Assembly: GCA_002104905.1 (NCBI GenBank)
Contig: MCFE01000559.1
Location: 1 to 57,947, forward strand
Direction: 5' to 3'
Source of the DNA: Basidiobolus meristosporus CBS 931.73
Taxonomy: Eukaryota; Basidiobolomycota; Basidiobolomycetes; Basidiobolales; Basidiobolaceae
DNA length: 57,947 nt
Within the stretch, counting starts at the first letter, position 1. The number at the start of each line of letters is the position of its first letter. A program made the position numbers and the translations under genes. This document shows positions 1,874 through 57,947 of this stretch, piece after piece. Under the pieces are notes generated by a model that saw nothing but the letters and a program-made list of their open reading frames with translations, was not told where the DNA came from and did no database searches.

Positions 1874-1878
1874 GGGAG

Positions 1879-10684: not shown

Positions 10685-10695
10685 CTGAGTGGGAG

Positions 10696-11869: not shown

Positions 11870-11871
11870 GT

Positions 11872-16642: not shown

Positions 16643-16990
16643 TGTTGTATTTATTAAGTTGTCACCAAAATGCTCATGCTAAATTAGTCACATAGATCTT
16701 ATTTGTTGATTAGCATTCTGTCCTGACCAAATTTCTTGTTGGGATTTACTTAGAATACTTTCACCAAATTGTCAAGTACCCAGATTATGATCTTGCTCAA
16801 AGTTGTCCAAAAGCCCCCAAACTTTGCACACATATTCTTGGGACCTTCCCTAACAAACTCTACACGTTTGTTTGCTCTACTTTGTCAAAAGTATAAATAC
16901 CATACTTTTGATCGATAAATCTACAAGTGAATAACATGAAAATCCTCTAGTTCTCCACATCACTTCCAATACTCCTCAGAATATTGCAAT
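16643..16990 (+). repeat. Copia LTR, family 2
   Basis: Plus-oriented LTR starting TGTTGTATTTATTAAG and running to ATATTGCAATATT. It contains CAAAAGTATAAATACCATACTTTTG, the same TATA-nested inverted repeat seen in family 1. No coding partner adjoins it. Confidence 0.75.
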
Positions 16991-17129
16991 ATTTTGCAGT
17001 AGTGGTATTTTGCATTTTTTCTTCTTTCACTTTTTCAGCAGCTGACCCAGGGCTGATAGCCTATGTGGGATGATTCTGAATTTCCTTGCAGGTAGGAACA
17101 TGGTGTGTTTGAGTACAGGAATCTTCATT

Positions 17130-18474: not shown

Positions 18475-18759
18475 GCTCAACGCTGAACAATAAGCCTCAT
18501 ATATTCTTAACATATATAAGTGGTCTGGGTGAGTGCCTAAGATATACTACTTGCTTGATGTTAACAAAGCTAGAGAATAAAATATGATTGAAAAGATGTT
18601 AGGAGCATGCATGGAGATATTGGAGGCTTTTGCATGACTTTTTGAGTACTCATTTTTTGAATACTTGACATTTGATAAGAATAACTTGAGTAAACCCCAA
18701 CAACAAATGTGAACCATCACCTATGATATAAGTATATTATTTAAATGTGAATACAAAAC

Positions 18760-19229
18760 TTACAATACCTTCCAGAGACCATTGTTTTCCCATAATAATA
18801 TCTCAAAGGTTTCTCTGTCAAAATAACATCCTCATTTTCACACTCCAGACTTAGTAGTCGAATCAACTTGGCATTTTAGCAGAGTAATAGCAGTAGTGAG
18901 CATTCTCGAGAGGAATAGCTTGGAGCTCATAGCCCAATGGGAGAGCTAGTGTGGTAAGTCACTTTCACTGACAATTGATTGAATGTAAAAGTGGTATGTA
19001 TCCCTTTACAAAGGTCCGGTAGAATAGACTTATGAAACAAGTTTAGGAAGGCCTTGAAACCACGTATAAGGAGTTTAGAGTCATCCCGGGAAGAAATATC
19101 ATATTCTTAGTATTTGATATTTCAGTTGAGTATATCCATGCATATCCCAACAGAGTTTGGTCCAAGCTCATGGACTAGGAACCAAGCGACTCGATGTAAA
19201 TATTTAGCTGTAAATCCAAGACCGACAAC
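18760..19229 (-). mobile_element. Copia LTR plus gag start, degenerate
   Basis: The LTR at about 18936-19229 (minus, ending CCGACAACA) is followed by a degraded primer-binding site (AGCTTGGAGCTCATAGCC on plus, 18918-18935) and by gag N-terminal codons read from about 18915 down to 18760. On the other side of the LTR, CTCCCACGTAAC looks like the complement of a polypurine tract. The LTR is therefore shared between two former tandem elements. Confidence 0.6.
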
Positions 19230-33091: not shown

Positions 33092-36000
33092 ACCAGAGGC
33101 GCGGCTAACGCCTAGAGCTGAAGTTCACTGAATATGACGAAGCGATTGGGAGAGTGCTAATGCACGATTAAACGATTGCTCCAGAATACTTTGTCCTTTG
33201 GCCAACACCTGGACACATTTATTGGTGTAACTCGTGCGATCGATGGGCCATAGCATCTCCTATGTAAATACTACATCGCCCTCTTACTAGATAAAGCCTA
33301 GATTAGAGCCTGCCTTGTTGCTGGGCATCAATGAGAAACTATTCGGGCTGTTTACGTTGGTTGGTGTTGGATGGATATAGGAGTCTCCTTCCTGGTCTTC
33401 ATGTGCCTCGTCATCAAAGCCTCGCCTGTTCGGTCCATGCGGATTCTTATATAAATTTACTGCTTGTGAGCATCTATCCTTAGCCGTAGTCATAAAATAA
33501 GGTTCATTAATGAAACATCCACATGAGGTTAGATCTTGTGCTGCTTCTGACTGGAGATAGAACAGCTTCTGTCGAGATTTAGTTTACAACCATGGTGGAA
33601 CGCGTATCTTCTGTGGGGTATCCGTTCTGATCCATTCCCTGAGTTCTGGTTAAAACGGATTTTTCTATTTCCATATGGTTGCGTTCACCACTGGACGGCC
33701 GGCTTAATTTGGCAATAGGGTCTAATATATGTGACGTCTGGCCGATTCCCATCCGTTCAGTGATAGCGCAACCGCTAGCCATTTTTGTCCAGGAGAGATC
33801 CACTCAATCGATATTATTCAACGGGCTCTCAGCAGCCAATCATTTGCGCAGAACTCTCGGTGAGCCAGCACACTCAGTGCGTAAGTTGTGAGCTTTAATT
33901 TGTCTCCTGTCACCTGATGCAAGAAACTCACTAGCTCAGCAGTTGCACATCCTATTTGACGTCGAAGGATCCAGATTGTTCCATTCATTTACAGGACGAT
34001 GAAGATGAATACTGATCGCAACATCGGTGCCTTAATTAATGTTTCCTTAATTCACATTCACTCTCCAATCCTTGTGTATGTCTATTACCTAACCTTTCAG
34101 TGCGGAATACATATGGGCGTTTCAGCATTTTCTGAAACATCAATATTCCTGGTATAAGGAGGGGACGGGCCAAGACTTTCACGGATTCAACCTCATCTAG
34201 GAACACAAAATCGTACTGCAGATCTGCCCTCACAAGAGATTGGTGTCAATGGTTTACTTCTGAAGCCGCCCACTAGCACGTATAGGAACGGTTTCCCCTT
34301 GAAACCGATGAAAAGAAGGAAATTAGCTGTCTGCCGAGATCTGCGCTGTCAAGGCCGTGCCTGAGCTTGATGCTTCTTGCATGCTCACCTATTTTACAAG
34401 ATCCAATTTGTGATCCTTTCGTCTATGAAATGCTAGTATATACGGCTTAATTCCCCGCGGTATATAACTATGCATTGGTAATACAAAGAGATGGTCACCG
34501 CCTGAACCTCACAAAAAGACAGACCCGTTGCATTCCAGTGCCAGGTTGAGTATTATCTCGTAGATTTCCCTTCAGCATCGCTGTTGCAAGCATATTCATC
34601 CATGTAGATATAGATTTACCCGAACACAGACCCTTCAATAGCAAATTAGCTCACCTAAGATTGAATTGTTCAGGAATCCAGACTAGTTTGATTCGGAAAC
34701 AAGATGCATTATCTTGACGAGTATGATCTGTGTGACACGCCCAGGCATGGGAAATGGACTACTATGAAAATCGTTGATATGGTTGAGTCAATATACCTTA
34801 GAAGGCAGGTGTCGAGTTACTGTTGCAGTGGCTCAGGATAATGTGACTTGCAGTCTCTAGCATAGAGTGTGATCCTGTATACTGCATGACTTGATGGGTA
34901 ACCAGTATCTTCTACACTTGGTTTGGTGAACGCTTGCTCCACAGTGTCAGCGTACTGGTTGTCGCGAACAAGTCACTTGCACAGTAAATATAGACTCAGA
35001 CATAGTCATGCCTCACTAGAGGATGTCAGATGAGCTGGATGGCATGGTGTCCATTAACTTGGGTGTTGCCAATCGCGCCCCACCTACTTAGAGTTGGGAG
35101 CCGACTTAAATCTTAATGCTGGCTAAGGAATTTGGGGAGAATGGTCAACGGCATTTGATCATTTCAATGGTGCCAACAATTGCTCGGATGCTGGTAATCC
35201 ATTGGATCACGGAAGTGCTTCACCAAGTCTCAACTGCGTGAAACACAACCCTACTTAGTGGAAGCTATGGACACTGACTTTGAGACCAAAGTGTTGCCCG
35301 ATCGAGAAAAAAAACTATTTAATAGTGCCACCTGCCCTGGCGTGTTTGATTCACTCTTGTATCGCATCTTATTTGCAGCCTAACTCAAGTCCCGGATAAA
35401 CCATATGGAGGGAAAAGATTGCAAAGCACAATTACATCACCCACGGGAGAAGCAACACTCCATCAAGTCATTCAAATGGTGGGAGAAGATGCTGCTTACC
35501 AAGAGTATAGAGCGCCTGCAAGCTGATGCTAAGAATACCACTCTGGAAAGAACGCACAGTGCGGCTGATCTTACAGCCATCGGGATTGGTGGCACTATTG
35601 GTATTGGCATCTTTGTACTGACCGGTTTGGCTGCGGCCAAAAATACGGGCCCGGCAGTTGTTCTTTCCTTTATTCTGGCTGGGCTCACCGCCAGCACTGC
35701 AGCATTCTCCCTTTCCGAGATGGCTTGCATAATTCCCGTCTCGGGTTCGACTTACACTTACGTCTACGCTACCCTTGGCGAGCTTGCTGGCTGGGTAATC
35801 GGTTGGGATCTGATTTTAGAGTACCTGGTTGGCGCCGCTACAGTCTCCGTAGGGTGGTCCAATTACTTTCGGTCGTTCCTAATGAATGCCTTTGGTATCC
35901 AAATCAGCGAACGCTACACCTCCGCCCCAGTCATCTTCGACACCGACACTCAGTCGTTCAATATGTCCGGTAGCATCATAAATGTGCCCGCCATCCTCAT

Positions 36001-37030
36001 CTCCCTAACAATCAGTACGCTTCTTTATACTGGTGTGCGCGAGTCGGCTAGGGTGAACACCGTGATTGTCATTACGAAACTACTCGTCATCGTGCTGTTT
36101 ATCACGGCTTGTCTCAAGTATGTTGATCCAAAGAACTACACGCCATTTCTTCCACCAAATCAAGGCTCGTTTGGTTTGTACGGCTTTTCCGGGTTATTGT
36201 CAGCTACCACCACCGTCTTTTTCTCATACATCGGCTTCGATTCGGTAACAACGGCGGCACAAGAAGCCAAGAACCCTGAAAGGGATGTGCCCATTGGAAT
36301 CTGGGCCTCGCTGATTATCTGCGCTGTGCTCTATATCGCCATGTGTATGATAATGACCGGCATTGTGCCGTACCACGAACTTAATTCCCCTTCACCTGTC
36401 TCAGTCGTGATTGCATACACAGGAATGAGTTGGCTCACAATTATAGTAGAGTTCGCCGCTATAATTGGCCTCACCTCAGTGATGATTGTATTATTGTTGG
36501 CACAATCCAGAATATTCTACACCATGGCCTGTGATGGCCTATTGCCATCGTCTGCTGCAAAAATCCACAAGAAATTCAAAACCCCGTGGGTGACAACGAT
36601 CGCCTCTGGAGCATTCTGTGCATTGCTAGGAGGAGTTCTTCCGGTAGATGTACTTGGTGAGATGAGCGCCGTTGGAACGCTGTTCGCATTTGCATTGGTA
36701 CATGTCGGGGTGATTATCCTGCGTTTTAGAAGACCTGAGCTACCGCGCAAGTTTAAGACTCCATTGGGACCATTTGCGATCCCTATCTTTGGTATTGCGA
36801 TGTCCGTTGTGTTAATATGTGGTGCAACTATCTCCACCATCTTACGACTATTCATCTGGATGGCGGTTGGATTGCTGGTATATATCTTGTATGGGCGTAC
36901 ACACTCGAAAATCTGCGAAACATTTGTAAGTCTTCATAATCACGAGATGGATAGCATGGGAAGAGCCAATGGGTCCGTTTAAGGCTGCTGATTCAAATCT
37001 TTTGGATAACTGGATTGCTTCAGGATCAGC
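33092..37030 (+). repeat. Left arm of a ~3.9-kb inverted duplication
   Basis: This segment is repeated in reverse orientation at about 46500-50388. Outer edges match at AGAGGCnCGGCTAnCGCC followed by TAGAGCTGAAGTTCAC. Homology runs through about 2.2 kb of non-coding DNA, then a near-identical amino-acid permease, and fades about 50 bp after its stop. The non-coding part has patches of high and low similarity (for example 34430-34530 differs greatly). No gene was recognised in 33092-35404 itself. Confidence 0.9.
35405..36982 (+). CDS. CAT-type amino-acid permease, left duplicate
   Basis: 525-aa APC-superfamily transporter of the cationic amino-acid transporter / bacterial YfnA-like type; uptake of amino acids across the plasma membrane is inferred. 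An N-terminal cytosolic stretch with WWEKMLLTKSIERLQAD precedes TM1, ADLTAIGIGGTIGIGIFVLTG, the unwound substrate-binding helix. Then come PAVVLSFILAG, EMACIIPVSGSTYTY, WDLILEYLVGAATVS, FFSYIGFDSVTTAAQEAKNPERDVPIGI (family signature around TM6) and about a dozen further hydrophobic helices. No intron. ATG at 35405 is chosen because an in-frame TAA lies about 20 bp upstream where the right copy has TAC. Differences from the right copy are few in the first 300 residues and cluster in the last 30. Confidence 0.92.
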   Translation: MEGKDCKAQLHHPREKQHSIKSFKWWEKMLLTKSIERLQADAKNTTLERTHSAADLTAIGIGGTIGIGIFVLTGLAAAKNTGPAVVLSFILAGLTASTAAFSLSEMACIIPVSGSTYTYVYATLGELAGWVIGWDLILEYLVGAATVSVGWSNYFRSFLMNAFGIQISERYTSAPVIFDTDTQSFNMSGSIINVPAILISLTISTLLYTGVRESARVNTVIVITKLLVIVLFITACLKYVDPKNYTPFLPPNQGSFGLYGFSGLLSATTTVFFSYIGFDSVTTAAQEAKNPERDVPIGIWASLIICAVLYIAMCMIMTGIVPYHELNSPSPVSVVIAYTGMSWLTIIVEFAAIIGLTSVMIVLLLAQSRIFYTMACDGLLPSSAAKIHKKFKTPWVTTIASGAFCALLGGVLPVDVLGEMSAVGTLFAFALVHVGVIILRFRRPELPRKFKTPLGPFAIPIFGIAMSVVLICGATISTILRLFIWMAVGLLVYILYGRTHSKICETFVSLHNHEMDSMGRANGSV

Positions 37031-40000: not shown

Positions 40001-40096
40001 TACCCTCAAAACAACCATCCTTCTAACCCCCTGATTTGACTTATTACGCCATCTTGAGGAGATACGCGGAATTATCCTATTTGAGGTCTTTCTTTG
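37031..40096. other. Intergenic spacer left of the third permease
   Basis: About 3 kb. One open frame of 178 codons (39296-39832 +) has no recognisable motif and may be chance. AGTATAAATA at 39971-39980, about 120 bp before the permease ATG, is a plausible TATA element. Nothing else is identified. Confidence 0.45.
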
Positions 40097-41632
40097 ATGA
40101 AACCGCAGGTAACAAATTACGAGGTACCGAAGAAAAGCTGGTGGAGAAAGCTCTTTACGGTCAAGAGTATTGACCAGCTACAGGCGGACGCCGAGGAGTC
40201 GATACTAAGGCGCTCATTGAACTTTGTGGATCTGACTGCCATTGGAATCGGGGCCATCATCGGGACTGGCATCTTCGTGCTGACCGGCATTGCTGCTGCG
40301 AAGAATGCCGGACCGGCGGTTGTATTGTCATTCGTCGTGTCTGGAATTGCTGCCGGGACAGCTGCTGTATCATATTCCGAGATGGCCTGCATGCTTCCAG
40401 TCGCCGGTTCCGCTTATACGTATACATATGCAACCATGGGGGAGCTGGTAGGCTGGATCATCGGCTGGGATTTGATATTGGAATACCTGGTTGGCGCAGC
40501 AACCGTCTCTGTTGGTTGGTCTGGGTATTTCAAGTCATTTTTTAAGAGCGCCTTTGGTCTGAACATGAGTGCAAAGTGGACGGAGGCGCCGTTCCTGTTT
40601 GATACCAAAACTCAATCGTTCCATATTTCCGGTAATATCCTCAATATCCCAGCTATTGTAATCTCCTTGGCGATCACCGCATTGCTCTGCTTTGGTGTTC
40701 GTGAATCCGCTAGGTTGAATACTGTCATTGTTATCGTGAAGATCCTGGTGATTCTATTGTTTGTCTTTGCCTGCATCAAAGACGTAGATCCCAAGAATTA
40801 CACCCCTTTCTTCCCACCAAACGAGGGAAACTTCAACCAATTCGGCGTCTCAGGTATGTTTTCAGCCGCCACCACGGTCTTCTTTTCGTATATTGGCTTC
40901 GATGCCATATCCACTGCCGCACAGGAGTCCAAGAATCCACAAAGAGACCTTCCGATTGGTATTTGCGGCTCGTTGCTGATATGTACCGTACTCTATATCG
41001 CTGTCTGCTTCATAATGACTGGCGTGGTTCCGTACACAGAATTGAACGTCCCTGCACCCATCTCGGTTGTCATCGCTCATACTGGTATGAGCTGGTTGGG
41101 GGTTATTGTGGACTTTGGTGCGCTGATCGGCCTAACCTCGGTGATTTTGGTCCTTCTTTTGGGTCAACCACGGATTTTCTATGCTATGGCACGTGATGGC
41201 CTCTTCCCTGCTGTTGCCGCGAAAATTCACCCTCGCTTCAAAACGCCGTGGGTAACTACACTGGTGTCAGGTACTGCTTGTGCCGTCTTAGGCGGCATCC
41301 TTCCGGTTGATGTTCTTGGAGAAATGACATCAGTCGGAACATTGTTTGCTTTTGTTCTGGTAAACATCGGTGTCATTATTCTTCGGTTCAAGCGACCCGA
41401 TCTCCCACGCAAATTCAAGGTCCCACTTGGGCCATTTGTCATCCCGGTAATTGGTGCAGCCCTGGCGATTCTGTTGATCTGTACGGCAACCGTCTCCACT
41501 ATCATTCGACTTTTCGTATGGATGGGGATTGGGCTCCTGATCTATTTCTTGTATGGACGCACCCACTCAAAAATCAATAATCCTCATTTGAATCCTGGAG
41601 TACATGAGCATTCTGATAAGGAAGACATATAG
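40097..41632 (+). CDS. CAT-type amino-acid permease, third paralogue
   Basis: 511-aa APC/CAT-family transporter, intronless, clearly related to the two duplicates but diverged along its whole length. The ATG at 40097 is used; the frame opens one codon earlier only at a TTG. TM1 reads VDLTAIGIGAIIGTGIFVLTG, the canonical GIGAIIGTGIF form, whereas the duplicates have GIGGTIGIGIF. The signature FFSYIGFDAISTAAQESKNPQRDLPIGI is present, as are PVAGSAYTYTYATMGELVGW and the C-terminal LLIYFLYGRTHSKI. It sits inside the spacer of the inverted duplication in plus orientation, with its own TATA-like element upstream. It probably represents the older locus from which the duplicated copies diverged. Substrate is not determinable from sequence alone. 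Confidence 0.93.
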   Translation: MKPQVTNYEVPKKSWWRKLFTVKSIDQLQADAEESILRRSLNFVDLTAIGIGAIIGTGIFVLTGIAAAKNAGPAVVLSFVVSGIAAGTAAVSYSEMACMLPVAGSAYTYTYATMGELVGWIIGWDLILEYLVGAATVSVGWSGYFKSFFKSAFGLNMSAKWTEAPFLFDTKTQSFHISGNILNIPAIVISLAITALLCFGVRESARLNTVIVIVKILVILLFVFACIKDVDPKNYTPFFPPNEGNFNQFGVSGMFSAATTVFFSYIGFDAISTAAQESKNPQRDLPIGICGSLLICTVLYIAVCFIMTGVVPYTELNVPAPISVVIAHTGMSWLGVIVDFGALIGLTSVILVLLLGQPRIFYAMARDGLFPAVAAKIHPRFKTPWVTTLVSGTACAVLGGILPVDVLGEMTSVGTLFAFVLVNIGVIILRFKRPDLPRKFKVPLGPFVIPVIGAALAILLICTATVSTIIRLFVWMGIGLLIYFLYGRTHSKINNPHLNPGVHEHSDKEDI

Positions 41633-43102: not shown

Positions 43103-46100
43103 TCTGTTTACTTCAATCGAAGGGATTTTCGATGAAAACCACGAGGAAAAACAACCTCAATTTATAGGAGTAGCCTTCGAACTCTTTGGAATTACTATTT
43201 TCATCTCATAAACAAATCCAGGTATTCGCGCGCCCAACAAGTAAGCGGCCTGGGACACCTTCCTAAACCCGTATTCAGCTGAAGTTTTTCGGAGTACAAA
43301 CTACATATGTTGTGGTGGGTAACCTAACTTCGGACTAATTGATCTGCCACGGCGACTATGGAAGAGTTGGCGGTTCACATTTGGTGTGCAGCCCTTTTGA
43401 GAATTTCTTCATGCAAGTCAACGAAGGCCGAATTGCCAAGAAAGGTAGGGCTCTGGAAGCCCCTTGTTCGGTATTCATGAGGAATGACCAAATATAACCG
43501 ACATGAAGGCAGTAAAAACCGTAAAAATGGTCTCTTTTCGGTAAAAAATTGTGAGTTGTGGTAGTAACACAGAGAAACACCCTAGAGGTGCATGGGTACT
43601 AGATTGCTTATTCAGCAAAAGCCACGTTTATTTCCTTTGTCGTCCATATGAATCTCAACAACAGCAATTTCGATAAGGTTTATGGAGGTTTGGATCGTTG
43701 TGACACTCAACAACCGCCGCACGAACTCATCCATTCAAGCAGAATACTCTACCTCAGAGTAGGTTACTCATTCAACAAGGGTTACCCATTTACGGGAGTT
43801 ACGATGACAGGTTACCTGTATATTCTATGGAGAATAAAGAGTTACCAATGCTGGTAGAGGTGGTTGTTTGAGAGGTGGCACACTATCAACACTTCCATCT
43901 TAGTTGATGCGGTGGGAATATCTTACATTCTTCAAGTGGAAGGCAAGATCGGATATAGGTATACGCCCATCATAACTGGGCCTTTTCACCAAATTCACCT
44001 TTTTGTCCTTTGACCTTGTCAATATTCTTTCTAAAATTGGCTTCGTAACCCTAACCCATCCTTAATCCAGATATTGTGTTTTGGTGAAGAAAATCTTGGA
44101 AAATCAAATTTGAGGAGGGATCGAGGTGCACTACTTTCCTTAATCATACATGTGCAGCAGCAAAAATTGCTATATACGATATAATGCATTTGTAGATCAT
44201 GAAGTCATTCTGAAATTGAGTTTGGCGGTCGCGCGGCACTTCTAAATTATCGCAATACTCAACTTTCAATGCATATATATATATATATATCGATACTAAA
44301 ATATGCTCAATTCATTTATCCTGAGCAATATTATAGTATTGTTCTAAATTGTTTTTTACTTGATTCAATCCTTGATGTTCGGGGTTTGGATTGTTAACAG
44401 CCGGAGGAGCTATAATACTCTACACATTGTCAGATGAGTTGCGTTGTGCTATTGTTAAATATCGATTCCCATAATAAACCCCTGAAGCAATTGATGAAGG
44501 ATTCTGAAGGGTGAATGGTGAGGAAGCCAACAAGCTGGTGAAATCTTTAGGCTGGGGAAGGGGAGACAATCACAAACAGGGGATGTATTTAAAACAAGCC
44601 ATAGCAACACCAACTTCGTAGAGTGGCCGGCAGCCAACGATGAGTCTCCCTTTTAAAGCTTAGTAATTCTTACCCCAATGCTCTGTGAGTAATTCAACCT
44701 TGGGCTACAGTGCTTGACCTTTCACAATTACATCTTTTATACATCTGTTATGAAAGTAGCATTTTAATGCTCAATACTATTGTACAGAGCAACCCTTAAT
44801 TCAGATTCAGCAACGACTTGAACGGGCATGGTATTGATTATAGCCACAATGTGGTGGAGGGCCATTATTATACTTGATCATTCTAGTCGGCTATAGATGC
44901 AAGCAAGTTGGAGCCAAGCCATCATATGTAATTATAAATACATACACAAGGTTGATTTGACTTCCTGCGCTACATTTTCAATAACATAATTAGAAACATT
45001 ATCCTCTGTTGCTGTTCCAATCGGGTGACCAGCTGAAATAGCCATAGTTGACCACTTAAAACAAGTAACAAGTGTTGGGGATTATCAGCAGAAAAAATCT
45101 TATATGCTAGCTGATCGTTTTTCTACGGTAAAATCAAAAGCTGTGGGGTTCTGAACCAATTAATTATAGTGAAGCAATTAATCACAACTCTTGCTGGTCA
45201 AATTGAATAACCACTATAACAGCAATATTGGCGATTACTATAATCAAATCCATTCAATGGGGATGGCTGAGAACTTAGGATTAAGCATTATCAATATTTG
45301 TAGCTTAAGTGCCGGTTACGTTACGCTATTCAAATAAGAGCAATGAGGATTAGTAGCTTACTAGTACAGTCCCTCCAAAATAGAGATATACTACAGTCGT
45401 GTTAGAGTATAATTTGCGTTGAGGTAATACGGAGAGTCTCAGTGTGGTACACGTTTGATACACATCATATCCATTGTTCAGCATTGAATCTCCTGTCTTG
45501 CAATGAAACCAGTGTGGATGCCGTATTTAGCTATGTATGGGCTTGCTCATTCTAGCTTGGTGTGAATGCCACGAATTCGACACCTTCAGTAAAGTTTACC
45601 AAGATGCAGTAGTCCTTGTTTGGTCGCTGACCGTTGATGTGGGCATGAACTCGAACCCATTCAACCAGTATATTTCCAAGTCACCAGCCGTGCCTAAAGG
45701 GTTCCTGTCAGGCTCCAACGAGTCAAATGCATTTTGTAATGAAGGCTGAATATTCAAAGCGGCAGGGATTCCAAGAGGTCATGGTTAGGATATGACAAAT
45801 GGCCTAGTCAGGATTAAGAAACCAGGAGGCACATGGGGAGACCTTTGTGGGGGATCTGCAGTAGCTACATCTAATCGTTCGTACAGGGTTAGACAATCTG
45901 TACCAAGTGCAAAAATGAGGTGGATACATTTGAGCACAATACTGTTGGTGCTATTTAAGAGTTTTCACTTCCGAGAAATTTTGCTATCTTGACGTCAGGA
46001 GTTCACTGTATAGAATAAGTATTCATTGCTACTATATGTCAATATGCTAGAACATAGCATTGGCATGCTATAATAGAGATTAGCCCTGATTTGCATCATT

Positions 46101-46499: not shown

Positions 46500-49400
46500 A
46501 ATCCTGATGTACTCGAGTTGTCCAAAAATTTTGAACCAGCCGCCCTAGACGGACTCATTGACACCTCCTATGCTTTCCATCTCATGATTATGAAGGCCTA
46601 CAAATGTTTTGCCGATTTTCGAGTGTATACGCCCGTACAAGATATATACCAGCAATCCGACCGCCAACCAGATGAATAATCGTATGATGGTAGAGATAGT
46701 TGCACCACATATTAACACAACGGACATCGCAATACCAAAGATAGGGATCGCAAATGGCTCCAATGGAGTCTTAAACTTGCGCGGTAGCTCAGGTCTTCTA
46801 AAACGCAGGATAATCACCCCGACATGTACCAATGCAAATGCGAACAGCGTTCCAACGGCGCTCATCTCACCAAGTACATCTACCGGAAGAACTCCTCCTA
46901 GCAATGCACAGAATGCTCCAGAGGCGATCGTTGTCACCCACGGGGTTTTGAATTTCTTGTGGATTTTTGCAGCAGACGATGGCAATAGGCCATCACAGGC
47001 CATGGTGTAGAATATTCTGGATTGTGCCAATAAAAATACAAGCATTACCGATGTGAGGCCAATTATAGCGGCGAACTCTACTATAATTGTGAGCCAACTC
47101 ATTCCTGTGTATGCAATCACGACTGAGACAGGTGAAGGGGAATTAAGTTCGTGGTACGGCACAATGCCGGTCATTATCATACACATGGCGATATAGAGCA
47201 CAGTGCAGATAATCAGCGAGGCCCAGATTCCAATGGGCACATCCCTTTCAGGGTTCTTGGCTTCTTGTGCCGCCGTTGTTACCGAATCGAAGCCGATGTA
47301 TGAGAAAAAGACGGTGGTGGTAGCTGACAATAACCCGGAAAAGCCGTATAAACCAAACGAGCCTTGATTTGGTGGAAGAAATGGCGTGTAGTTCTTTGGA
47401 TCAACATACTTGAGACAAGCCGTAATAAACAGCACGATGACGAGTAGTTTCGTAATGACAATCACGGTGTTCACCCTAGCCGACTCGCGCACACCAGTAT
47501 AAAGAAGCGTACTGATTGTTAGGGAGATGAGGATGGCGGGCACATTTATGATGCTACCGGACATATTGAACGACTGAGTGTCGGTGTCGAAGATGACTGG
47601 GGCGGAGGTGTAGCGTTCGCTGATTTGGATACCAAAGGCATTCATTAGGAACGACCGAAAGTAATTGGACCACCCTACGGAGACTGTAGCGGCGCCAACC
47701 AGGTACTCTAAAATCAGATCCCAACCGATTACCCAGCCAGCAAGCTCGCCAAGGGTAGCGTAGACGTAAGTGTAAGTCGAACCCGAGACGGGAATTATGC
47801 AAGCCATCTCGGAAAGGGAGAATGCTGCAGTGCTGGCGGTGAGCCCAGCCAGAATAAAGGAAAGAACAACTGCCGGGCCCGTATTTTTGGCCGCAGCCAA
47901 ACCGGTCAGTACAAAGATGCCAATACCAATAGTGCCACCAATCCCGATGGCTGTAAGATCAGCCGCACTGTGCGTTCTTTCCAGAGTGGTATTCTTAGCA
48001 TCAGCTTGCAGGCGCTCTATACTCTTGGTAAGCAGCATCTTCTCCCACCATTTGAATGACTTGGTGGAGTGTTGCTTCTCCCGCGGGTGATGTAATTGTG
48101 CTTTGCAATCTTTTCCCTCCATATGGTTTATCCGGGACTTGAGGTAGGCTGCAAATAAGAAGCGATACAAGAGTGAATCAAACACGCCAGGGCAGGTGGC
48201 ACTATTAAATAGTTTTTTTTCTCGATCGGGCAACACTTTGGTCTCAAAGTCAGTGTCCATAGCTTCCACTAAGTAGGGTTGTGTTTCACGCAGTTGAGAC
48301 TTGGTGAAGCACTTCCGTGATCCAATGGATTACCAGCATCCGAGCAATTGTTGGCACCATTGAAATGATCAGATGCTGTTGACCATTCTCCCCAAATTCC
48401 TTAGCCAGCATTAAGATTTAAGTCGGCTCCCAACTCTAAGTAGGTGGGGCGCGATTGGCAACACCCAAGTTAATGGACACCATGCCATCCAGCTCATCTG
48501 ACATCCTCTAGTGAGGCATGACTATGTCTGAGTCTATATTTACTGTGCAAGTGACTTGTTCGCGAAAACCAGTACGCTGACACTGTGGAGCAAGCGTTCA
48601 CCAAACCAAGTGTAGAAGATACTGGTTACCCATCAAGTCATGCAGTATACAGGATCACACTCTATGCTAGAGACTGCAAGTCACATTATCCTGAGCCACT
48701 GCAACAGTAACTCGACACCTGCCTTCTAAGGTATATTGACTCAACCCTGTCAATGATTTTCGAGGTGGTCAAATCTTATGCCTGGGCGTGTCACACAGAT
48801 CATACTCGTCAAAATAATGCATCTTGTTTCCAGATCGAACTAGTCTGGATTCCTGAACAATTCAATCTTAGGTGAGCTAATTTGCTATTGAAGGGTCTGT
48901 GTTCGGGTAAATCTATATCTACACGGATGAATATGCTTGCAACAGCGATACTGAGGTAAAATCCACGAGATAACAAGACGCTGGAATGTAATGGATCTGT
49001 CTGCTTGTGAAGCTTCAGTGATAATCATATCTTCGCGTTACGAATGTATCCTCGTTTACCACTGGAATTAGACCGTATATACTAGCATTTCATAGACGAA
49101 AGGATCACAAATTGGATCTTGTAAAATAGGTGAGCACACAAGAAGCATCAAGCTCAGGCACGGCCTTGACAGCACAGATCTCGGCAGACAGCTGATTTCC
49201 TTCTTCACATAGGTTGTAGAGTGAAGCCTTCCTTATGCTTAATAGTGACTGGCATCAAACGCAAGCCGTCGATACCAATCTCTTTTGAGGGCATTTCTTC
49301 GGTACAATTTTGCATTCATAGACGCGCTGAGTCTGTAGAAATCTTTAGCTCATCCCATGCTTTCACCAAGAATATCAGTAATTTAGAAGATGCTCCACCG

Positions 49401-50556: not shown

Positions 50557-50574
50557 GGATTAGGGGTTAGGGGA
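50557..50574 (+). repeat. Telomere-like repeats at the 3' end of LINE-A
   Basis: GGATTAGGGGTTAGGGG: two degenerate TTAGGGG units abutting the last base of the LINE-A tail. The G-rich strand is the plus strand, the same as in the chromosome-terminal telomere. Confidence 0.75.
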
Positions 50575-50654
50575 GGGAAAGTCACCAAGTTGGTGAAATC
50601 TTTATTTGAGTTAAGAGCTAATCTAAGTACAAATAAAGAAGCCAATTCAGAGGT

Positions 50655-52853
50655 CTAGAACCTCTCTAATAAGTAATCTAATATATGTTTTGTTTCTTCT
50701 CTAATGTTTGTTTCAATAAAGTAAAGCTCATCAGGGGTAAATATAAAATTCAGGGGTTTTGGGGGAAGTACAAATTGTAGATGTTTCTGATCAATATAAT
50801 CCAAGACTGGAACCCAGCCTGGGATTAAGTGCAGTAGGAAAGGTGTGTGGACTTGTAAGTAGCTCTGCCACATAGATCTTAGATGGTCCTGAGCCAGTAG
50901 TCTTGGTTTCTCAGCTTTTTGAAGTTTTGAAGCAAGCTCTGTTACTACAGCAGAGCCAACCAGGGTGTGCCAGCAAGAAGATTTCAGGGAGGAGTTAGAT
51001 TGAAGCCATTGTTTAATGGAGGGGTTATGTGATTTCTGAAGTTTGACTAGGAAGGAAGCACGGAGATAGATCATTCGGATTTGGTATGGGTAGAACCCAA
51101 AGGCTCCATTAGTTGCATGGATATAGGGAGATACTGGAAGATAAGGTACCAAGGATCTGATACACTGATGGAGAAATTTATCCAGGCGGTGAAGTTCTCT
51201 GGAGGTTAGGGGTATAATGTGGAGACCAAATTCAAGTACTGGCAGCACATACTGCTTCAGAAGTATAGGGATCTTTTGAATTGGAGTGTCTGGAGTGACT
51301 ACTACCAGAAGCTTTTTGAGAGCCTGTTGGGCAAGACGGATCCTATTATTCAGGTGGAGCTTGGAGTCAATCCCATGTTGACAAAACGGCAGACCTAGAT
51401 ATATTGCAGTTTGTTGTGGCAGAATGCTAGTGTTTTGTATAGTTGTAGTGCATCCAATTGGGACTGTCTTGGAAATTGAGAGTGAGAGGTTGTTGGCAGC
51501 CAAGTACTTCTCAATGATGGCAGTGTCTGCTATGGGATTAGGAGTAGCAATCTTGATATCATCTGCATAGAGAGTTAGTAGTGGATAGGGAGAGTCTGGT
51601 GAGGGGCCTTTTGGAAATAAAGGAAAGTCATGTAGGAATATCACAAATAATAAGGGACCTAGTACAGATCCTTGGACTACTCCATTTGGAACCTCATAAG
51701 TCTCTGATGTACAACTTGGATGCAAAATTTTGGCTGAGTTCTCACAAAATAGAGAACATACAAGAAGGGTCATTGGTAGTGTGGTAACTGCTAATAGCTT
51801 TCTCCAAAGCAGAGCTCTGTCCACAGAGTCAAAGGCTTTAGTAATGTCAAACAGAATGGTTGGCAATGAGAATTGAAGTGAATGATCATGGCTTAGCACT
51901 ACAGCCATATCCAAGGAGAGTTTGGGCAAGAAGCCAAACTGAGAAGGATGGAATGGATATAGTTGAGATTGCAAGGATTTTGCTATTATAAGCTCAAAGA
52001 TTTTCCGGCAGGTTGGTAGGAGTGAAACTGGCCGGTAAGAACCTGGGAGTGAGTGTTTCCCCTTCCCTTTGTATAAGGGTATTACATTTGCCTGTGACCA
52101 GGCCTTTGGGGTAGTCAATTGTTGGGCACAGATAGAGTAGAATGGGAGAAGTAAGTGACTCATTTTGGAGTAGCACACCCGGAGTAGATTGTAGGTAATC
52201 AAGTCATGTCCAGGTGCAGTATTTGCAGGAAGCTTCTTTAAAATTTTCTCCAGAAGCTTTGCTGAAACCAAAATTGGAGATGTTGTACTGCTAGATATGT
52301 CACCAGTATGGTAGAAAGGAGGAGTGGGATGCACGGTTGAATCAAAGAATATAGGGGCCAGTTTGTCTGGTGATGGTATACTCCTTGCTTGGGGTCTCAT
52401 GGCTTTGTATACTCTTGATATGGACCTTGTGGTGGCATTCATATTTACTAAGGGCAAGGTATCCATGATATGAGCCCATAATCTAGTATGCTCAGTGATC
52501 TGTAGTGACTTGGAGTAGGAGATTGCGCTTTCCAGGAGGTTGTGTGTTTTTGGGTTAGGGAAACATAGGTAGCTGGAATTTAAGGCAGAAATGATGGATT
52601 TCCATTTAAGTTGGTTTGCAGATGGCTTTTGGTAGGACTTGGTGGGCAGGGCCAGACAGCCAGTGATTATGATGAAATGCTGGTAAAATAGCCATAATGC
52701 ATTTACATCATCACAAATCCATGCAGGTAAGCTGGGAAATGCATATTCTGTAAGCAAGGATAGGTAGTTGGCAAAGTCCTGTGTCTGTGATACTGAAGCT
52801 TTGGCTGGCAGGATTGTAAATGGCTGAAGAAGGGTGCCAATTGGTAGGGTTTT
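50655..52853 (-). CDS. LINE-A reverse transcriptase region of ORF2
   Basis: Continues in the same frame as the endonuclease after a UGA at 52856-52854, with no obligatory Met. Counting from the TTG codon at 52757 as residue 1: fingers motif SYRPVSLLPTCRKIFE near 240; motif A FDITKAFD (303-310); motif B NGVVQGSVLGP (358-368); motif C LYADD (396-400). A thumb and C-terminal region of about 300 residues follow, with no zinc knuckle recognised. The protein aligns end to end with the LINE-B ORF, at roughly half identity by eye. Makes cDNA from the element RNA in the nucleus. Intact apart from the UGA separating it from the endonuclease. Confidence 0.9.
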   Translation of the reverse strand, partial: KTLPIGTLLQPFTILPAKASVSQTQDFANYLSLLTEYAFPSLPAWICDDVNALWLFYQHFIIITGCLALPTKSYQKPSANQLKWKSIISALNSSYLCFPNPKTHNLLESAISYSKSLQITEHTRLWAHIMDTLPLVNMNATTRSISRVYKAMRPQARSIPSPDKLAPIFFDSTVHPTPPFYHTGDISSSTTSPILVSAKLLEKILKKLPANTAPGHDLITYNLLRVCYSKMSHLLLPFYSICAQQLTTPKAWSQANVIPLYKGKGKHSLPGSYRPVSLLPTCRKIFELIIAKSLQSQLYPFHPSQFGFLPKLSLDMAVVLSHDHSLQFSLPTILFDITKAFDSVDRALLWRKLLAVTTLPMTLLVCSLFCENSAKILHPSCTSETYEVPNGVVQGSVLGPLLFVIFLHDFPLFPKGPSPDSPYPLLTLYADDIKIATPNPIADTAIIEKYLAANNLSLSISKTVPIGCTTTIQNTSILPQQTAIYLGLPFCQHGIDSKLHLNNRIRLAQQALKKLLVVVTPDTPIQKIPILLKQYVLPVLEFGLHIIPLTSRELHRLDKFLHQCIRSLVPYLPVSPYIHATNGAFGFYPYQIRMIYLRASFLVKLQKSHNPSIKQWLQSNSSLKSSCWHTLVGSAVVTELASKLQKAEKPRLLAQDHLRSMWQSYLQVHTPFLLHLIPGWVPVLDYIDQKHLQFVLPPKPLNFIFTPDELYFIETNIREETKHILDYLLERF

Positions 52854-53504
52854 TCAGGCAGAAATGATAATATGTATTGGCTTGTGATCAGATTTCTCTA
52901 GTGAACCACAGCTGAAATCCTCTGGCATGCTTGTAACCTGGTGGATGTACTGTAAGGCAGCTGGAGTGGCTGTTACCCAGTCAACACAACGTTGAGCTTG
53001 CTGAGTGTTTACAGTGACCAGATGGTTTTGTTGGAGGAACTTTGTAAAGTGCTCCTCTTGGGTTCTAAGTCTGGATGAAATAGTGGTGATATTTTCAGGG
53101 TGGGGAATATTTATATCTCCCACTACCATACAAGGGATTGATGAGCTGTTAATGAATTCTGATGTGGCCAAGAAAATTGCCAGTGTTATGGAGATAGACA
53201 GAGATGGAGGGAGATAGATAATAATGGCTACTATAGTTGGAAGTGTTAGAGCATAGCAGTAATACTCATAGATGATGGATACATTTGTTGAGGGTGCAAG
53301 CTTAGAAGATGAAAGAGCAACAAGTGCCATTGAGTGAGCTGGAAATTTTGGGTGAGCAGATGAATATGCATTCAGTCTAGAGGGAAGTTTTGGCAACTTA
53401 ACATCAATTAGTAGGAGCAAGGAATATTCCTTTTTCAGTAAGTTTTCTAATTCAGCTACAGTTGGAGTGATGGAGTTGCAATTGAGTAAGAGTATGTTCT
53501 GTAG
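52854..53504 (-). CDS. LINE-A AP-like endonuclease region of ORF2
   Basis: Begins directly after the ORF1 UGA with LQNILLLNCNSITPTVAELE, the usual first strand of LINE endonucleases (N residue), and contains VVGDINIPHP (the GD-x-N-x-x-H motif), VDWVTATPAA and a terminal KSDHKPIHI (catalytic SDH). It would nick target DNA to prime reverse transcription; telomeric repeats are the likely target given the insertion sites. The first Met is 29 codons in, at 53420, so translation presumably arrives from ORF1. It ends at UGA 52856-52854. The equivalent position in LINE-B is open. Confidence 0.82.
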   Translation of the reverse strand, partial: LQNILLLNCNSITPTVAELENLLKKEYSLLLLIDVKLPKLPSRLNAYSSAHPKFPAHSMALVALSSSKLAPSTNVSIIYEYYCYALTLPTIVAIIIYLPPSLSISITLAIFLATSEFINSSSIPCMVVGDINIPHPENITTISSRLRTQEEHFTKFLQQNHLVTVNTQQAQRCVDWVTATPAALQYIHQVTSMPEDFSCGSLEKSDHKPIHIIISA

Positions 53505-54302
53505 TCAGGCAGACTCTGAGGTTGCCTGTTCCTGCTGAAACTCTTGCACTGCCCTTTGTAAATTTCCAGAATTATTCCACAACTCTTCAAATGGAGCTTG
53601 CGTAATGTCTTTCAGGATTCTAATTGCTTCCTCTTTCAAGAAGTAGGCCACATCATAGGTTGGAGCCTGTTTCTTAATGGCAGCAAAGAAAGCCATAATT
53701 GCCATGTGAGCTGGGGGCTTGTTGAATATTCCTGGCTCAGTGTCCATTGACTCTGGTGGAATGATTGTGAATTTGGTAGGCACCCAGTTTAGATTTTTTG
53801 CCAGATACTTAGTCAATGCAGTGGAGAAGTTTCTGTCTACAATCATTTCTAGGATCTTTCCTCTTCTCCAAGCTAGGTTAACAATTTTTGAAGTGTCAAT
53901 ATTTAGAGAGCGGAATGTATGTCTGATGTTTGATATAGTAGTCCATGGAACATTGGCAAAGTATAGCAAGGACCAATTCTGGAGCTGAGGTAAGTTTGCT
54001 GGAGGCTTATAGGTAGACTTCCTGGCAGGTTGTGTGGTAGGCTTTAGTGTTCCCAAGGTAGCAAGTTGTGGTTGAGACTTTTTGGAATTACGTATGACTT
54101 TGGAAAGAATTCTGCCAGCAACTGTGTCAGGAATGTTAGTACTCATTGATGGTGCAGGGCCTGGCTCCTGGTACTGCTTTTGTAGAATACTTGAGTATGT
54201 CTCTTTTTGTTTTCCTTTATCCAATGTGCTATGCCTTGGAATGGGATTTTGGGGAATAGAGACTTCAGGTATCAACTCTGTGGTCTGGTGATTGTCCAAC
54301 AT
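53505..54302 (-). CDS. LINE-A ORF1 protein (RNA-binding, gag-like)
   Basis: 265 aa from the ATG at 54302. The N-terminal 110 residues are Pro/Lys/Gln-rich and probably disordered. The middle (LQNWSLLYFANVPWTTISNI through VDRNFSTALTKYLAKN) has the spacing of an RRM-type beta-alpha fold, as in ORF1p of many LINEs. The C-terminus is helical and acidic. No CCHC zinc knuckle. It presumably coats the element RNA. The ORF ends GCC-UGA-CUA, and endonuclease codons follow in the same frame. UGA-CUA is the best-known leaky stop context in eukaryotes, so an ORF1-ORF2 fusion by readthrough is plausible. Confidence 0.75.
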   Translation of the reverse strand: MLDNHQTTELIPEVSIPQNPIPRHSTLDKGKQKETYSSILQKQYQEPGPAPSMSTNIPDTVAGRILSKVIRNSKKSQPQLATLGTLKPTTQPARKSTYKPPANLPQLQNWSLLYFANVPWTTISNIRHTFRSLNIDTSKIVNLAWRRGKILEMIVDRNFSTALTKYLAKNLNWVPTKFTIIPPESMDTEPGIFNKPPAHMAIMAFFAAIKKQAPTYDVAYFLKEEAIRILKDITQAPFEELWNNSGNLQRAVQEFQQEQATSESA

Positions 54303-54343
54303 TGTTGCTTGAGCATCCAGCTTTTCCTCTAAGATTTGAACTC

Positions 54344-54360
54344 AGGGTTTAGGGTTAGGG
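54344..54360 (+). repeat. Telomere-like repeats at the 5' end of LINE-A
   Basis: AGGGTTTAGGGTTAGGG: nearly three telomere repeats, one with an extra T, immediately outside the LINE-A 5' UTR. They then run into another element tail (54361). They look like the chromosome end that existed after LINE-A was added. Confidence 0.85.
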
Positions 54361-54380
54361 GGAGGAAAGTCACCAAGGTA
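54361..54380 (-). repeat. Truncated element tail
   Basis: GGAGGAAAGTCACCAAGG is the last ~18 bp of the shared tail. The sequence then restarts as a full tail at 54381. Either an extremely 5'-truncated insertion or a slippage duplication of the tail end. Confidence 0.6.
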
Positions 54381-54463
54381 GGGGGGAGGAAAGTCACCAA
54401 GTGGTGAAATCTTTATTTACTTATGACAAGTATCTAAAGAAGCCAAGTTAATCTGATGTTATT

Positions 54464-54582
54464 CCTAGAAAGCTAGGTCTGAGAGATATCTTCCTGGTAA
54501 GCCAGGTCTGAGAGTTGAGAAGCTGAGTGGTACTATATTTCCTAGTTAGCTAGGTCTGAGAGTGGTTTCCTGGAAAGCCAGG
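54464..54582 (-). repeat. Array of four covarying stem-loops (copy 1)
   Basis: Four perfect 5-bp stems with 4-nt loops at 54464-54477 (CCTAG AAAG CTAGG), 54493-54506 (CCTGG TAAG CCAGG), 54541-54554 (CCTAG TTAG CTAGG) and 54569-54582 (CCTGG AAAG CCAGG), each followed on plus by a TCTGAGAG-type motif. The fourth stem position alternates A-T and G-C with both partners changed, which keeps pairing intact. Confidence 0.85.
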
Positions 54583-54840
54583 CCTGAGAAGTGAGAATCT
54601 GAATATATCTGAGCTAAGTTATACTGGTTTGCGGTAGCTGAATTGTGGCCGGAATGGCCAGTAGACTGGGGGAGCTGAGATGAATATCTGGGCGATCACT
54701 GGCCAAATTTACTAGGCAAATCTGGCCAAGTAGCATTTCAAGGATTTCAGCCAATCAGAGCCTTTACTTTGCCCAATGGTTGATCAAGCCATCTCCCAAT
54801 GAGCACACATCAATTTATTGATCAAATTTTGCTGGATCCA

Positions 54841-54894
54841 GGATTTGAACCCACAACCATGGGTATGGAAGGGTTAGGGATAACCACAAGGCTA
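54841..54894 (-). promoter_or_regulatory. Predicted internal Pol III promoter (A and B boxes), copy 1
   Basis: A box TAGCCTTGTGG (54894-54884) fits TRGYNNARNGG at 10 of 11 positions. B box GGTTCAAATCC (54851-54841) fits GGTTCRANTCC. The 32-nt spacing is that of a tRNA gene. A full cloverleaf does not fold, as expected for a SINE head. Confidence 0.65.
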
Positions 54895-54983
54895 AGTGTT
54901 AGGGGGAGGAAAGTCACCAAGTGGTGAAATCTTTATTTACTTATGACAAGTATCTAAAGAAGCCAAGTTAATCTGAAGTAATT

Positions 54984-55102
54984 CCTAGAAAGCTAGGTCT
55001 GAGAGATATCTTCCTGGTAAGCCAGGTCTGAGAGTTGAGAAGCTGAGTGGTACTATATTTCCTAGTTAGCTAGGTCTGAGAGAGGTTTCCTGGAAAGCCA
55101 GG
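54984..55102 (-). repeat. Array of four covarying stem-loops (copy 2)
   Basis: Stem-loops at 54984-54997, 55013-55026, 55061-55074 and 55089-55102, identical in sequence and spacing to copy 1 although neighbouring bases have changed (for example AGTGG to AGAGG before the fourth). Confidence 0.85.
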
Positions 55103-55358
55103 CCTGAGAAGTGAGAATCTGAATATATCTGAGCTAAGTTATACTGGTTTGCGGTAGCTGGATTGTGGCTGGAAAGGCCAGTAGACTGGGGGAACTGAGA
55201 TGAATTTCTGGGCGATCACTGGCCAAATTTACTAGGCAAATCTGGCCATTAGCATTTCAAGGATTTCAGCCAATCAGAGCCTTTACTTTGCCCATGGTTG
55301 ATCAAGCCATCTCCCAATGAGCACACATCAATTTATTGATCAAATTTTGTTGGATCCA

Positions 55359-55412
55359 GGATTTGAACCCACAACCATGGGTATGGAAGGGTTAGGGATA
55401 ACCACAAGGCTA
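55359..55412 (-). promoter_or_regulatory. Predicted internal Pol III promoter (A and B boxes), copy 2
   Basis: Same A box (55412-55402) and B box (55369-55359) with the same spacing as copy 1; unchanged between copies. Confidence 0.65.
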
Positions 55413-55423
55413 AGTGTTCTTGG

Positions 55424-57741
55424 TTAGGGGGGGAGACAGTCACCAACAGGTGAAATCTTTATTTCAGTTGAAACAAAGAAGCCAGCGCTACTGTTGTAGC
55501 TTTGATACAAGAGTGTGTAGCTGAGGGGAATTTGTAGGTAAGTTAATAAGAAGTGATGATAGTTCTTCAGTGCTCAAGACACTGTTCAGTGGGAAGGGGG
55601 GTAGCAAGAGAGGTAAGAATGACTTGTGAACAACATTAATGAGGGGAATGTGATAAGGGTTGATATTCATCATAAAGGGAGTGTGCTGCTGCAGATATTG
55701 CTGCCAAAGGTCTGTCAAGTACTTCAGGTAGGCCAGCTTGGGTTTTTCTGACTGCAGAATAAATTCAGCAAACTTCTTGACTGCAGGATCTCCAAGTATA
55801 GTTCTCCAGCAGGAGCCAGGTGTTGTGTGGTGTGTTCTCTTCCAGGCCTTAATCAGTGGGTTGTTGCAGTTGTGAAGTCTGAGGTATAATCTGGTTCTAA
55901 GGTAGAGAAGTCTGATCTTATAGGGCATAAACCCAAAAGCACCAAGAATAGCATGTCTGTAGGGGCATTCAGGCAAATGAGGCACCAAGGAGGTAATGCA
56001 CCATACTGCAAACTTGTCAAGCTTAGTGCAGTCTCTAGAAGTAAGAGAGAGAAGTGGTAAGCCAAATTCCAGGACAGGGAAGACAAACTGCTTGAGTAGA
56101 AGGAGGCAGCTGGGAGCTGAAGTTGTAGGAGGAGTAACAGCCAGTAGCTTGTGGAGTGCCTGTCTTGCCAGGATAATTCTCTTCTTCAGGTGTGCTGCAG
56201 AGTCTAGTCCAGTAGGAAGGAAAGGAAAGCCAAGATATGTAGCAGAAACCTGAGCAGGTAGAGTGGAGTTCTCCAAGTTGATGGGAGAGCCCAAAGGTAC
56301 TGTCTTTGCAATGGAAAGCTGGAGATTATTCTTCTGCAGATACTGGTGGATGGTCTGGGAGTCTTGTTGCACATTGGAGGAGGATATTCTGATGTCATCA
56401 GCAAAGAGAGTAACCAGGCAGTCAGCTGAGAGTCTTGGGAAATCATTCAGGAAGATGGCAAACAGTATAGGACCAAGCACAGAGCCTTGAACCACTCCAT
56501 TAGGAACTGAGAACACAGCTGATTGCTCACTTGGGTGCAGAATTCTTGCTTGTGGATCCAGAAACAGTGACCTGACAAGGAGGGTGAGAGAGGTACTGGA
56601 GAAGCATTGCAACTTGGACCAAAGCAGATTTCTGTCAACTGAATCAAAGGCCTTAGTAATATCAAACAGAACAGAGGGATACTTGCACTGGAGAGAGTGA
56701 TCTTGGCTAAGTATGACTGCATATTCCAAGGAGAGGCCAGGAACAAAGCCAAACTGTGCAGGATGAAACTTGAGTGAGTCAGAGTAGAGCTCCTGAGCAA
56801 GCAGAAGCTCAAACACCTTTCTGCAGGTGGGCAGCAGAGATATTGGCCTGTAGGAGCTAGGATCCAGGTGCTTTCCTTTACCCTTGTACAGTGGCAGAAC
56901 ATTTGCAAAGGACCATTCCTCAGGAGTAGAAAGCTGGGCTGAGCATTGTTGAAACAGTGGAAGCAGAAGTGCAGACATGGCCTTGGTACTAGTCTTCAGA
57001 AGTTCATAAGAGATTGTGTCCACACCTGGAGCAGTAGAGTTGGGAAGCCTCTTGAGCACATTATGGATTCTCCTTTGATCAAGTGCAAGTGGGATGGGCA
57101 GAGTCTTGAAGTCAGGATGAAAGCCAGGAGTTGAGTACTGCTTTGTAGAGAAGAAGATGTTAGCCAGCTGTTCTGTTGAAGGTAACTTCCTGGAAGAGGG
57201 CCTCATTGCCCTGTAGAGTCTTGATACTGTTCTTGTTATAGAGTTGGAAGATTGCAGAGGCAAAGAACTCATAATATGATCCCAGAGCTGAGTATGCAGA
57301 GTGTGGTGAATTGCCTTGGAGTGATGTATTGCTGTCAGGAGGAGTTTCTCTGTTTTTGGGTTAGGGAAACTCAGGTAGCTTTGTTGCAGGGCTGAAACAA
57401 TGGATTCCCATTTTCTTGAGGTAACAGCAGTAGTCTTGCATGGCAGTGAGAGGGAGGCAGACACCAGAATCAGATGCTTCACAAACAGCCAGGCATAGTT
57501 GAGATCATCTGGCAGAGAAAGTAGCAAACTGGCAAGCTTCAAGTAGTTCCCAAAGTCTTTCTTCTGATTCTTGGTAGCTTTGTGGGTGAGCACAGTAAGT
57601 TTTGGCAGCTTCTTCTTCACAACTGGTTGCATAGAAAGGGACCAGGCTGGGTGGTCAGAGGCTCTCAAGGATCCTAGCTCAGCTCCAGAGAATTGCTTAA
57701 CTTCATTCACAAAGTAGAGGGCAGCTGCAGAAGGGCAGATC
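55424..57741 (-). mobile_element. LINE-B: second telomeric LINE, 5'-truncated and capped by the telomere
   Basis: About 2.3 kb, same orientation as LINE-A. Its tail (55424-55484) has the shared stem-loop (CACCAACAGGTG on plus) and GGGGGGAGACAGTCACC next to GGTTAGGGGG. Its 5' side stops inside the endonuclease domain, where terminal TTAGGG repeats begin at 57742 without intervening sequence. A different family from LINE-A: same architecture but strongly diverged coding sequence. Confidence 0.88.
55488..57741 (-). CDS. LINE-B endonuclease C-terminus and reverse transcriptase (5' truncated)
   Basis: The frame is open without interruption from the telomere junction to 55488; there is no native start. 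The first codons beyond the telomere (ICPSAAALYFVNEV) lead into LGSLRASDHPAWSL, whose SDH matches the last catalytic motif of the LINE-A endonuclease. No stop separates it from the RT. Counting the GTG codon at 57710 as residue 1: SYRPISLLPTCRKVFE near 287; motif A FDITKAFDSVD (349-359); motif B NGVVQGSVLGP (404-414); motif C LFADD (435-439). All catalytic residues are present, so the RT could be functional if expressed, but the promoter, ORF1 and most of the endonuclease are gone. Confidence 0.9.
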
Positions 57742-57947
57742 TTAGGGTTAGGGTTAGGGTTAGGGTTAGGGTTAGGGTTAGGGTTAGGGTTAGGGTTAGG
57801 GTTAGGGTTAGGGTTAGGGTTAGGGTTAGGGTTAGGGTTAGGGTTAGGGTTAGGGTTAGGGTTAGGGTTAGGGTTAGGGTTAGGGTTAGGGTTAGGGTTA
57901 GGGTTAGGGTTAGGGTTAGGGTTAGGGTTAGGGTTAGGGTTAGGGTT
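57742..57947 (+). repeat. Chromosome-terminal telomere, (TTAGGG)n
   Basis: 206 bp of perfect TTAGGG (34 units plus TT) to the end of the window, G-rich strand running 5' to 3' outward, as expected for a right chromosome end. No variant repeats occur in it, in contrast to the degenerate TTAGGGG tracts between the inner retroelements. Confidence 0.98.

Follow-up and report, generated by a model that had tools for sequence, protein, structure and literature searches.

The chromosome ends of the early-diverging fungus Basidiobolus meristosporus CBS 931.73 carry what is probably a telomere-restricted guild of non-LTR retroelements that grows by end-primed addition beside telomerase, an outcome like that of HeT-A/TART. 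We describe the anatomy, position, polarity and junctions of these elements, together with a telomerase-domain match in the same genome (89.0 Mb in 1,311 contigs). The window, the whole stretch of 57,947 nucleotides that was analysed, is contig C823. From the centromere side, its features follow in the order TTAGGGGTTAGGGG, LINE-A, a tail remnant, SINE copy 1, SINE copy 2, LINE-B and (TTAGGG)34 up to the contig end (Table 1). The initial annotation had placed these elements in one orientation, with their 3' tails inward and telomere-like junctions, and this held: all of them are on the minus strand, and the outermost is cut by (TTAGGG)34.3. Because of this strand their 3' ends point inward, and the plus strand, which is G-rich and has the telomere at its 3' end, is equivalent to the first cDNA strand. 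The tail on the centromere side of each element reads TTAGGGG...TCACC-loop-GGTGA-AATCTTTATT. The two SINE units are 98% alike and copy 2 is complete at its 5' end (CCAAGAACAC when read as RNA). The LINE-A copy has one in-frame stop between its endonuclease (EN) and reverse transcriptase (RT) parts, and its RT is 49% identical to that of LINE-B over 706 columns.

Table 1. Features at the telomeric end of the window (positions in the window).
Feature	Position	Strand	Remarks
Telomere-like junction TTAGGGGTTAGGGG	50560..50573	+	centromere side of LINE-A
LINE-A, APE-type LINE, 5'-truncated copy	50574..54343	-	3' tail ~50574-50660, tail hairpin at 50582
LINE-A ORF2, RT part, 732 aa	50655..52853	-	RVT_1 E 1.1e-20
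LINE-A ORF2, APE-type EN part, 216-aa frame	52854..53504	-	Exo_endo_phos_2 E 1e-4, below cut-off
LINE-A ORF1, C-terminal part	53505..54341	-	in-frame UGA-CUA, then ORF2
SINE-type tail remnant, 20 bases	54358..54377	-	family D17
SINE copy 1 including tail junction	~54379..54898	-	
SINE copy 2 including tail junction	~54899..55423	-	A/B boxes near 5' end
Telomere-like junction TTAGGGGGGG	55424..55433	+	SINE 2/LINE-B boundary
LINE-B, 5' part cut off by telomere array	55434..57741	-	RT frame 55488-57741, RVT_1 E 2.3e-25
Terminal telomere array (TTAGGG)34	57742..57947	+	34.3 units, 100% matches

The elements fall into three classes, namely autonomous LINEs (A and B), ORF1-only elements (D and E) and a SINE, and make up five or six families. 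LINE-A and LINE-B encode an ORF1 protein, an in-frame UGA-CUA stop and then an ORF2 with an APE-type endonuclease and RT. In a fuller LINE-A copy (L092) the ORF2 frame has 949 aa and the ORF1 frame 556 aa, and the whole 949-aa frame was free of stops in 14 of the 61 scored LINE-A places, at 93-99% identity. The assignment to APE-type LINEs made in the initial annotation was borne out by RVT_1 matches, a YADD/FADD motif in the RT alignment, an N-terminal APE-type EN and frequent 5' truncation with a constant 3' end; 77 junction rows of A, B and D stopped over 30 bases before the 5' end of the reference was reached, while their tails were constant. ORF2p of L092 models as an N-terminal APE-type endonuclease joined to a LINE-1-like RT. 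The RT part of the model fits the LINE-1 ORF2p fold (522 residues at 3.6 A) and the EN part fits the TRAS1, R1Bm and APE1 endonucleases, with TRAS1 EN among the best-scoring folds. In the alignment, the EN fold and most catalytic motifs are retained in A, B and their relatives, and the metal-binding Glu is Asp in all four aligned family members that cover the position. Pfam scans of the elements reported no restriction-like endonuclease, residues 880-949, at the C-terminal end of the model, being barely probed. In both LINEs the stop that separates ORF1 from ORF2 lies in a conserved TCTGCCTGACTAC context (L092:2934-3014 and L093:2830-2910), and from its sequence this UGA-CUA context is likely a programmed readthrough site. 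The deposited gene model P0010 (GenBank K493DRAFT_348252) looks chimeric, with LINE-A-like and LINE-B-like pieces.

An ORF1-like protein is the sole coding content of families D and E, and none of D, E or the SINE showed an RT. D elements with one common 5' end vary in length from 1,011 to 1,415 bases (L084, L071, L063, L021 and L050); this variation and a 5' motif that recurs internally suggest tandem repeats in the 5' UTR. The SINE shares its 3' tail with the partner LINEs and has an A box with one mismatch and an exact B box 32 nt apart, a match to the Pol III consensus boxes that was reached by 1 of 20,000 shuffles. The tRNA head proposed in the initial annotation is a candidate supported by these boxes; neither ARAGORN at default settings nor Rfam, to E 10, called a tRNA there. 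Telomere-like sequence also occurs inside elements, as CCCTAACCCTAA in the LINE-B 5' UTR (L093) and as CCCTAACCC in the stretch that separates the A box of the SINE from its B box.

What joins the families is the tail, which in RNA sense runs GGCUUC-UUURUUU...AAAUAAAGA-UU-UCACC...GGUGA, followed by a pyrimidine tract, a C-run and the telomeric junction. The module comprises hairpin I (CUUURUUU...AAAUAAAG), hairpin II (UCACC...GGUGA) and then the pyrimidine tract with its C-run; a poly(A) 3' tail is absent and tails end in the C-run at the telomeric junction. The two hairpins were the minimum-energy fold in A (z = -4.1), B (-3.8), D (-4.1), E (-3.7) and the SINE (-2.6), whereas F, of which one copy is known, folds differently (z = -1.8). 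Hairpin I closes with an A-U, C-G, G-C or G-U pair depending on the family, with one mismatch in F. The shared structure paired 95.2% of cells, compared with 35-60% when slid. Covariation was weak: in a test on seven rows with loops replaced by N, one pair had changed on both sides, which 268 of 500 shuffles also reached. Genome-wide, the tail pattern, whose spacing fits mainly LINE-A, had 275 matches (233 plus, 42 minus) versus 3 for the reversed control. Family-specific patterns, with up to 3 mismatches allowed, gave the following forward and reverse matches: A, 179 + 20 = 199; B, 758 + 74 = 832; SINE, 428 + 35 = 463; D, 215 + 28 = 243; and E, 77 + 9 = 86. Together the five families had 1,823 tail matches genome-wide, and the controls 0.

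Insertion of these elements is restricted to telomeres. We measured the distance to contig ends for the tail pattern, LINE-A, LINE-B, the SINE and D, taking the telomere start plus 200 bases as the contig end where length was lacking; for the tail pattern, 100 of the 275 matches were listed, in contig order and independent of position. The initial annotation had proposed comparing copies near ends with internal copies. Among the matches listed, 80 of the 81 tails on contigs of at least 50 kb lay within 20 kb of the end faced by their 5' side (uniform expectation, 15.7%), with a median distance of 3.8 kb; the remaining one lay at 21.8 kb and none faced the wrong way. On contigs of this size the same was true of 46/46 SINE and 42/43 LINE-A places, of 45/45 D places among the matches listed (57 of the 100 listed had usable length, 45 of them on such contigs), and of 40/41 LINE-B places (14 of 65 places without usable length were omitted), with one LINE-B copy inverted at C726:58442. 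On contigs below 50 kb, 16 of 19 tails among the matches listed, 11/11 SINE, 18/18 LINE-A and 9/10 LINE-B places were within 10 kb of the end that they face, one LINE-B copy, on C217, being inverted. As a control we used the RT of the Copia-type element in the same window, which occurred at 141 places (67 plus, 74 minus). Of its 33 places on usable contigs of at least 50 kb, 16 were within 20 kb of an end, split equally between the two ends, and 17 were internal, which shows no end polarity. The Copia-type element lies in 144-18945 of the window, with frames at 7554-10252 and, in either orientation, several repeats that are possibly LTRs.

By manual reading, elements sit directly under the telomere array at 20 of 28 contig ends; one end (L056) was uncertain, and 7 had no element within 1.5 kb. 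The 28 ends derive from 30 telomere loci, since L032 is interstitial and L051 and L052 are one contig. At the end of contig C249 (L046), the telomere array lies directly on a tRNA gene cluster in which ARAGORN calls six, and the last of these (tRNA-Lys, 1434-1506) reaches the array, which starts at 1502; this arrangement would suit the healing of a broken end.

We scored 3' junctions in 169 of the 176 tails in the analysed loci, dropping four that were unclassified and three with fewer than 60 bases upstream. In the 130 bases towards the centromere, 142 tails had at most two TTAGGG units and 27 had at least three, the largest number being 15. An earlier regex count had found 101 tails with one unit and 34 with two, its zero class of 15 being mostly pattern failure. 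TAGGG was present within about 30 bases of the tail in 162 of 169; the 7 junctions that lack it, some of which have degenerate repeats, suggest that priming is possible on non-telomeric 3' ends. Terminal arrays, found in 29 of 31 sequences, had a median of 207 bp (range 143-297, about 34 units), lengths that the assembly may have trimmed. The 3' junction was usually TTA followed by a G-run of 1 to 10, its register being fixed for the most part. Among 66 internal rows for the 5' junctions of A, B and D copies that are truncated, 26 had 2-8 nt of microhomology. After removal of 9 rows (at least 2 inserted bases, or outlier), 57 remained, 53 of them without an inserted base, with a mean microhomology of 1.45 nt, compared with a mean of 0.75 nt and 19.6% with at least 2 nt in random junctions (n = 20,000). 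SINE rows were excluded from this test because the SINE reference is short. The first telomeric base at 5' junctions occurred in all six phases. The analysed loci held 122 distinct 5' junction sequences, and the full SINE 5' end was followed by 30 distinct sequences, 23 of which begin as telomere repeat by pattern match.

We compared these elements with known telomeric systems. MoTeR1 and MoTeR2 of Magnaporthe/Pyricularia oryzae have their 5' ends outward and form head-to-tail arrays with half a (TTAGGG) unit to more than 20 between them (PMC7367193). The Basidiobolus elements resemble them in fungal host, in 5' ends toward the chromosome end, in head-to-tail arrays and in combining RT-bearing with RT-less partners; MoTeR2 shares both ends with MoTeR1, whereas D, E and the SINE share the tail only (D and E also the ORF1 domain). 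FoTeR of Fusarium oxysporum lies only at chromosome ends, 5' outward and with asymmetric junctions, as do the elements here, and has typically 3-7 telomere units at its 3' junction (PMC12857005). MoTeR and FoTeR group with CRE/SLACS and have a restriction-like endonuclease, and neither the word SINE nor non-autonomous was found in the main text on FoTeR (PMC12857005). Unlike both, the Basidiobolus LINEs have an N-terminal, APE-type EN, and their partners include ORF1-only elements as well as a SINE that has Pol III boxes.

An RT-bearing element with a gag-only partner recalls HeT-A/TART/TAHRE, the ORF1-only D and E carrying the shared tail; the likeness is one of organisation. In Drosophila, which lacks telomerase, these elements are assumed to be added at the chromosome 3' OH, with EN dispensable (PMC4700185). 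Here, unlike in Drosophila, there is a SINE, the ends bear terminal TTAGGG arrays and telomerase RBD matches were found on contig C880 (40.5 and 34.7 bits, above cut-off), so that the elements do not by themselves constitute the telomere. An APE-type EN and telomere targeting are shared with TRAS1/SART1 of the R1 clade. TRAS1 and SART1 are not known to have a gag-only or SINE partner. Among other systems, Zepp belongs with the LINE-like elements and Athena with the Penelope-like ones. Both are telomere-associated retroelements, of Chlorella and rotifers respectively (PMC10088271). Bombyx SART1 copies end in a poly(A) of about 20 (PMC7265360), unlike the C-run ending seen here. The initial annotation had not recognised an APE-type LINE with a SINE at fungal chromosome ends as described, and in the literature searched we did not find APE LINEs, ORF1-only elements and a SINE together at telomeres.

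The initial annotation had explained the polarity by priming from the chromosome end, and our analysis supports this. We propose that the LINE RT would bind the tail hairpins and that the C-run of the RNA, perhaps together with CCCUAA, would pair with the GGG-3' at a chromosome end that is short or eroded. That end would prime reverse transcription, often incomplete, and the new 3' end would then be extended by telomerase through 0-4 nt of microhomology or would prime the next element. Repeated cycles would build head-to-tail arrays with every 3' tail inward. D, E and SINE RNAs may be mobilised in trans, and ORF2 may be expressed by UGA-CUA readthrough. A fixed 3' register and a free 5' register with microhomology fit one picture, C-run priming followed by telomerase healing. 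Several observations count against end-priming: the conserved EN would be superfluous if priming were purely terminal, 27 of 169 tails have at least three units, covariation is weak, F folds differently, and the copies at C726:58442 and on C217 face the wrong way. Short centromere-side tracts could also come from EN cuts at the array base or from later shrinkage of interstitial arrays. A bolder form of the proposal, to which we give not quite even credence, is that an independent Drosophila-like guild has arisen in a telomerase-bearing fungus, in which readthrough-expressed LINE RTs would extend eroded ends in cis and in trans from their own, gag-only and Pol III-transcribed RNAs via one hairpin tail, telomerase and element RT being interchangeable as enzymes of end extension.

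The main competitor, which we consider unlikely although it deserves serious weight, is that the elements behave like TRAS/SART or MoTeR: the APE-type EN would nick the G-rich strand of the double-stranded array after GGG near its base, target-primed reverse transcription would follow, and the remaining array would stay outside. EN conservation and its fold match to TRAS1 EN speak for nicking, as do the mostly fixed TTA-GGG register, expected of a sequence-specific nick, and the same polarity and short tracts in MoTeR and FoTeR. After a random cut in an array of about 34 units, however, many units should remain on the centromere side, whereas most tails have two or fewer; the 7 tails lacking TAGGG, 5' junctions in all six phases with microhomology where one ligation phase would be expected, and the Asp in place of the metal-binding Glu also argue against it. 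We think it very improbable that subtelomeric recombination or break-induced copying is the main route by which the arrays spread, with transposition contributing little in recent times. Chromosome ends bearing MoTeR do rearrange in this way (PMC7367193), and some local tandem blocks recur here (C324:150731, 151014 and 151297), but the 5' junctions are mostly distinct and the intact LINE-A frames noted above are closely similar. An artefact, in which polarity stems from contig orientation or from the choice of end loci, is hardly credible. The assembly does have an unusual bias in the direction of its array starts (108 forward, 3 reverse; forward starts on contigs of known size are at or near right ends); yet 8 of the 81 listed tails on large contigs face the left end with unchanged relative polarity, Copia has none, and the listing order of tails does not depend on position.

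Beyond the initial annotation, the analysis adds the ORF1-only families D and E, the two-hairpin tail shared by all but F, and the in-frame UGA-CUA between ORF1 and ORF2. The published fungal telomeric elements that we found, MoTeR and FoTeR, rely on a restriction-like endonuclease; in this genome one niche and one tail are common to five or six families of three classes. Since tail and niche are shared in a telomerase-encoding genome, a single organism allows two questions to be tested: which features an RT has to recognise before it can prime from a chromosome end, and whether life at telomeres repeatedly gives rise to gag-only partners like those of flies. The shared tail is short enough for direct biochemistry.

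Further inside the window, about 13 kb from the telomere and between amino-acid permease genes, lies a decayed tail pair (44513-44605), by eye LINE-A-like and then LINE-B-like, which is possibly a relic of a former chromosome end. The window also contains an inverted duplication (34757-37026 and 46501-48770) whose copies agree at 98% across 2,270 bases; each has a frame for an amino-acid permease, and a third permease frame (40085-41632) lies between them.
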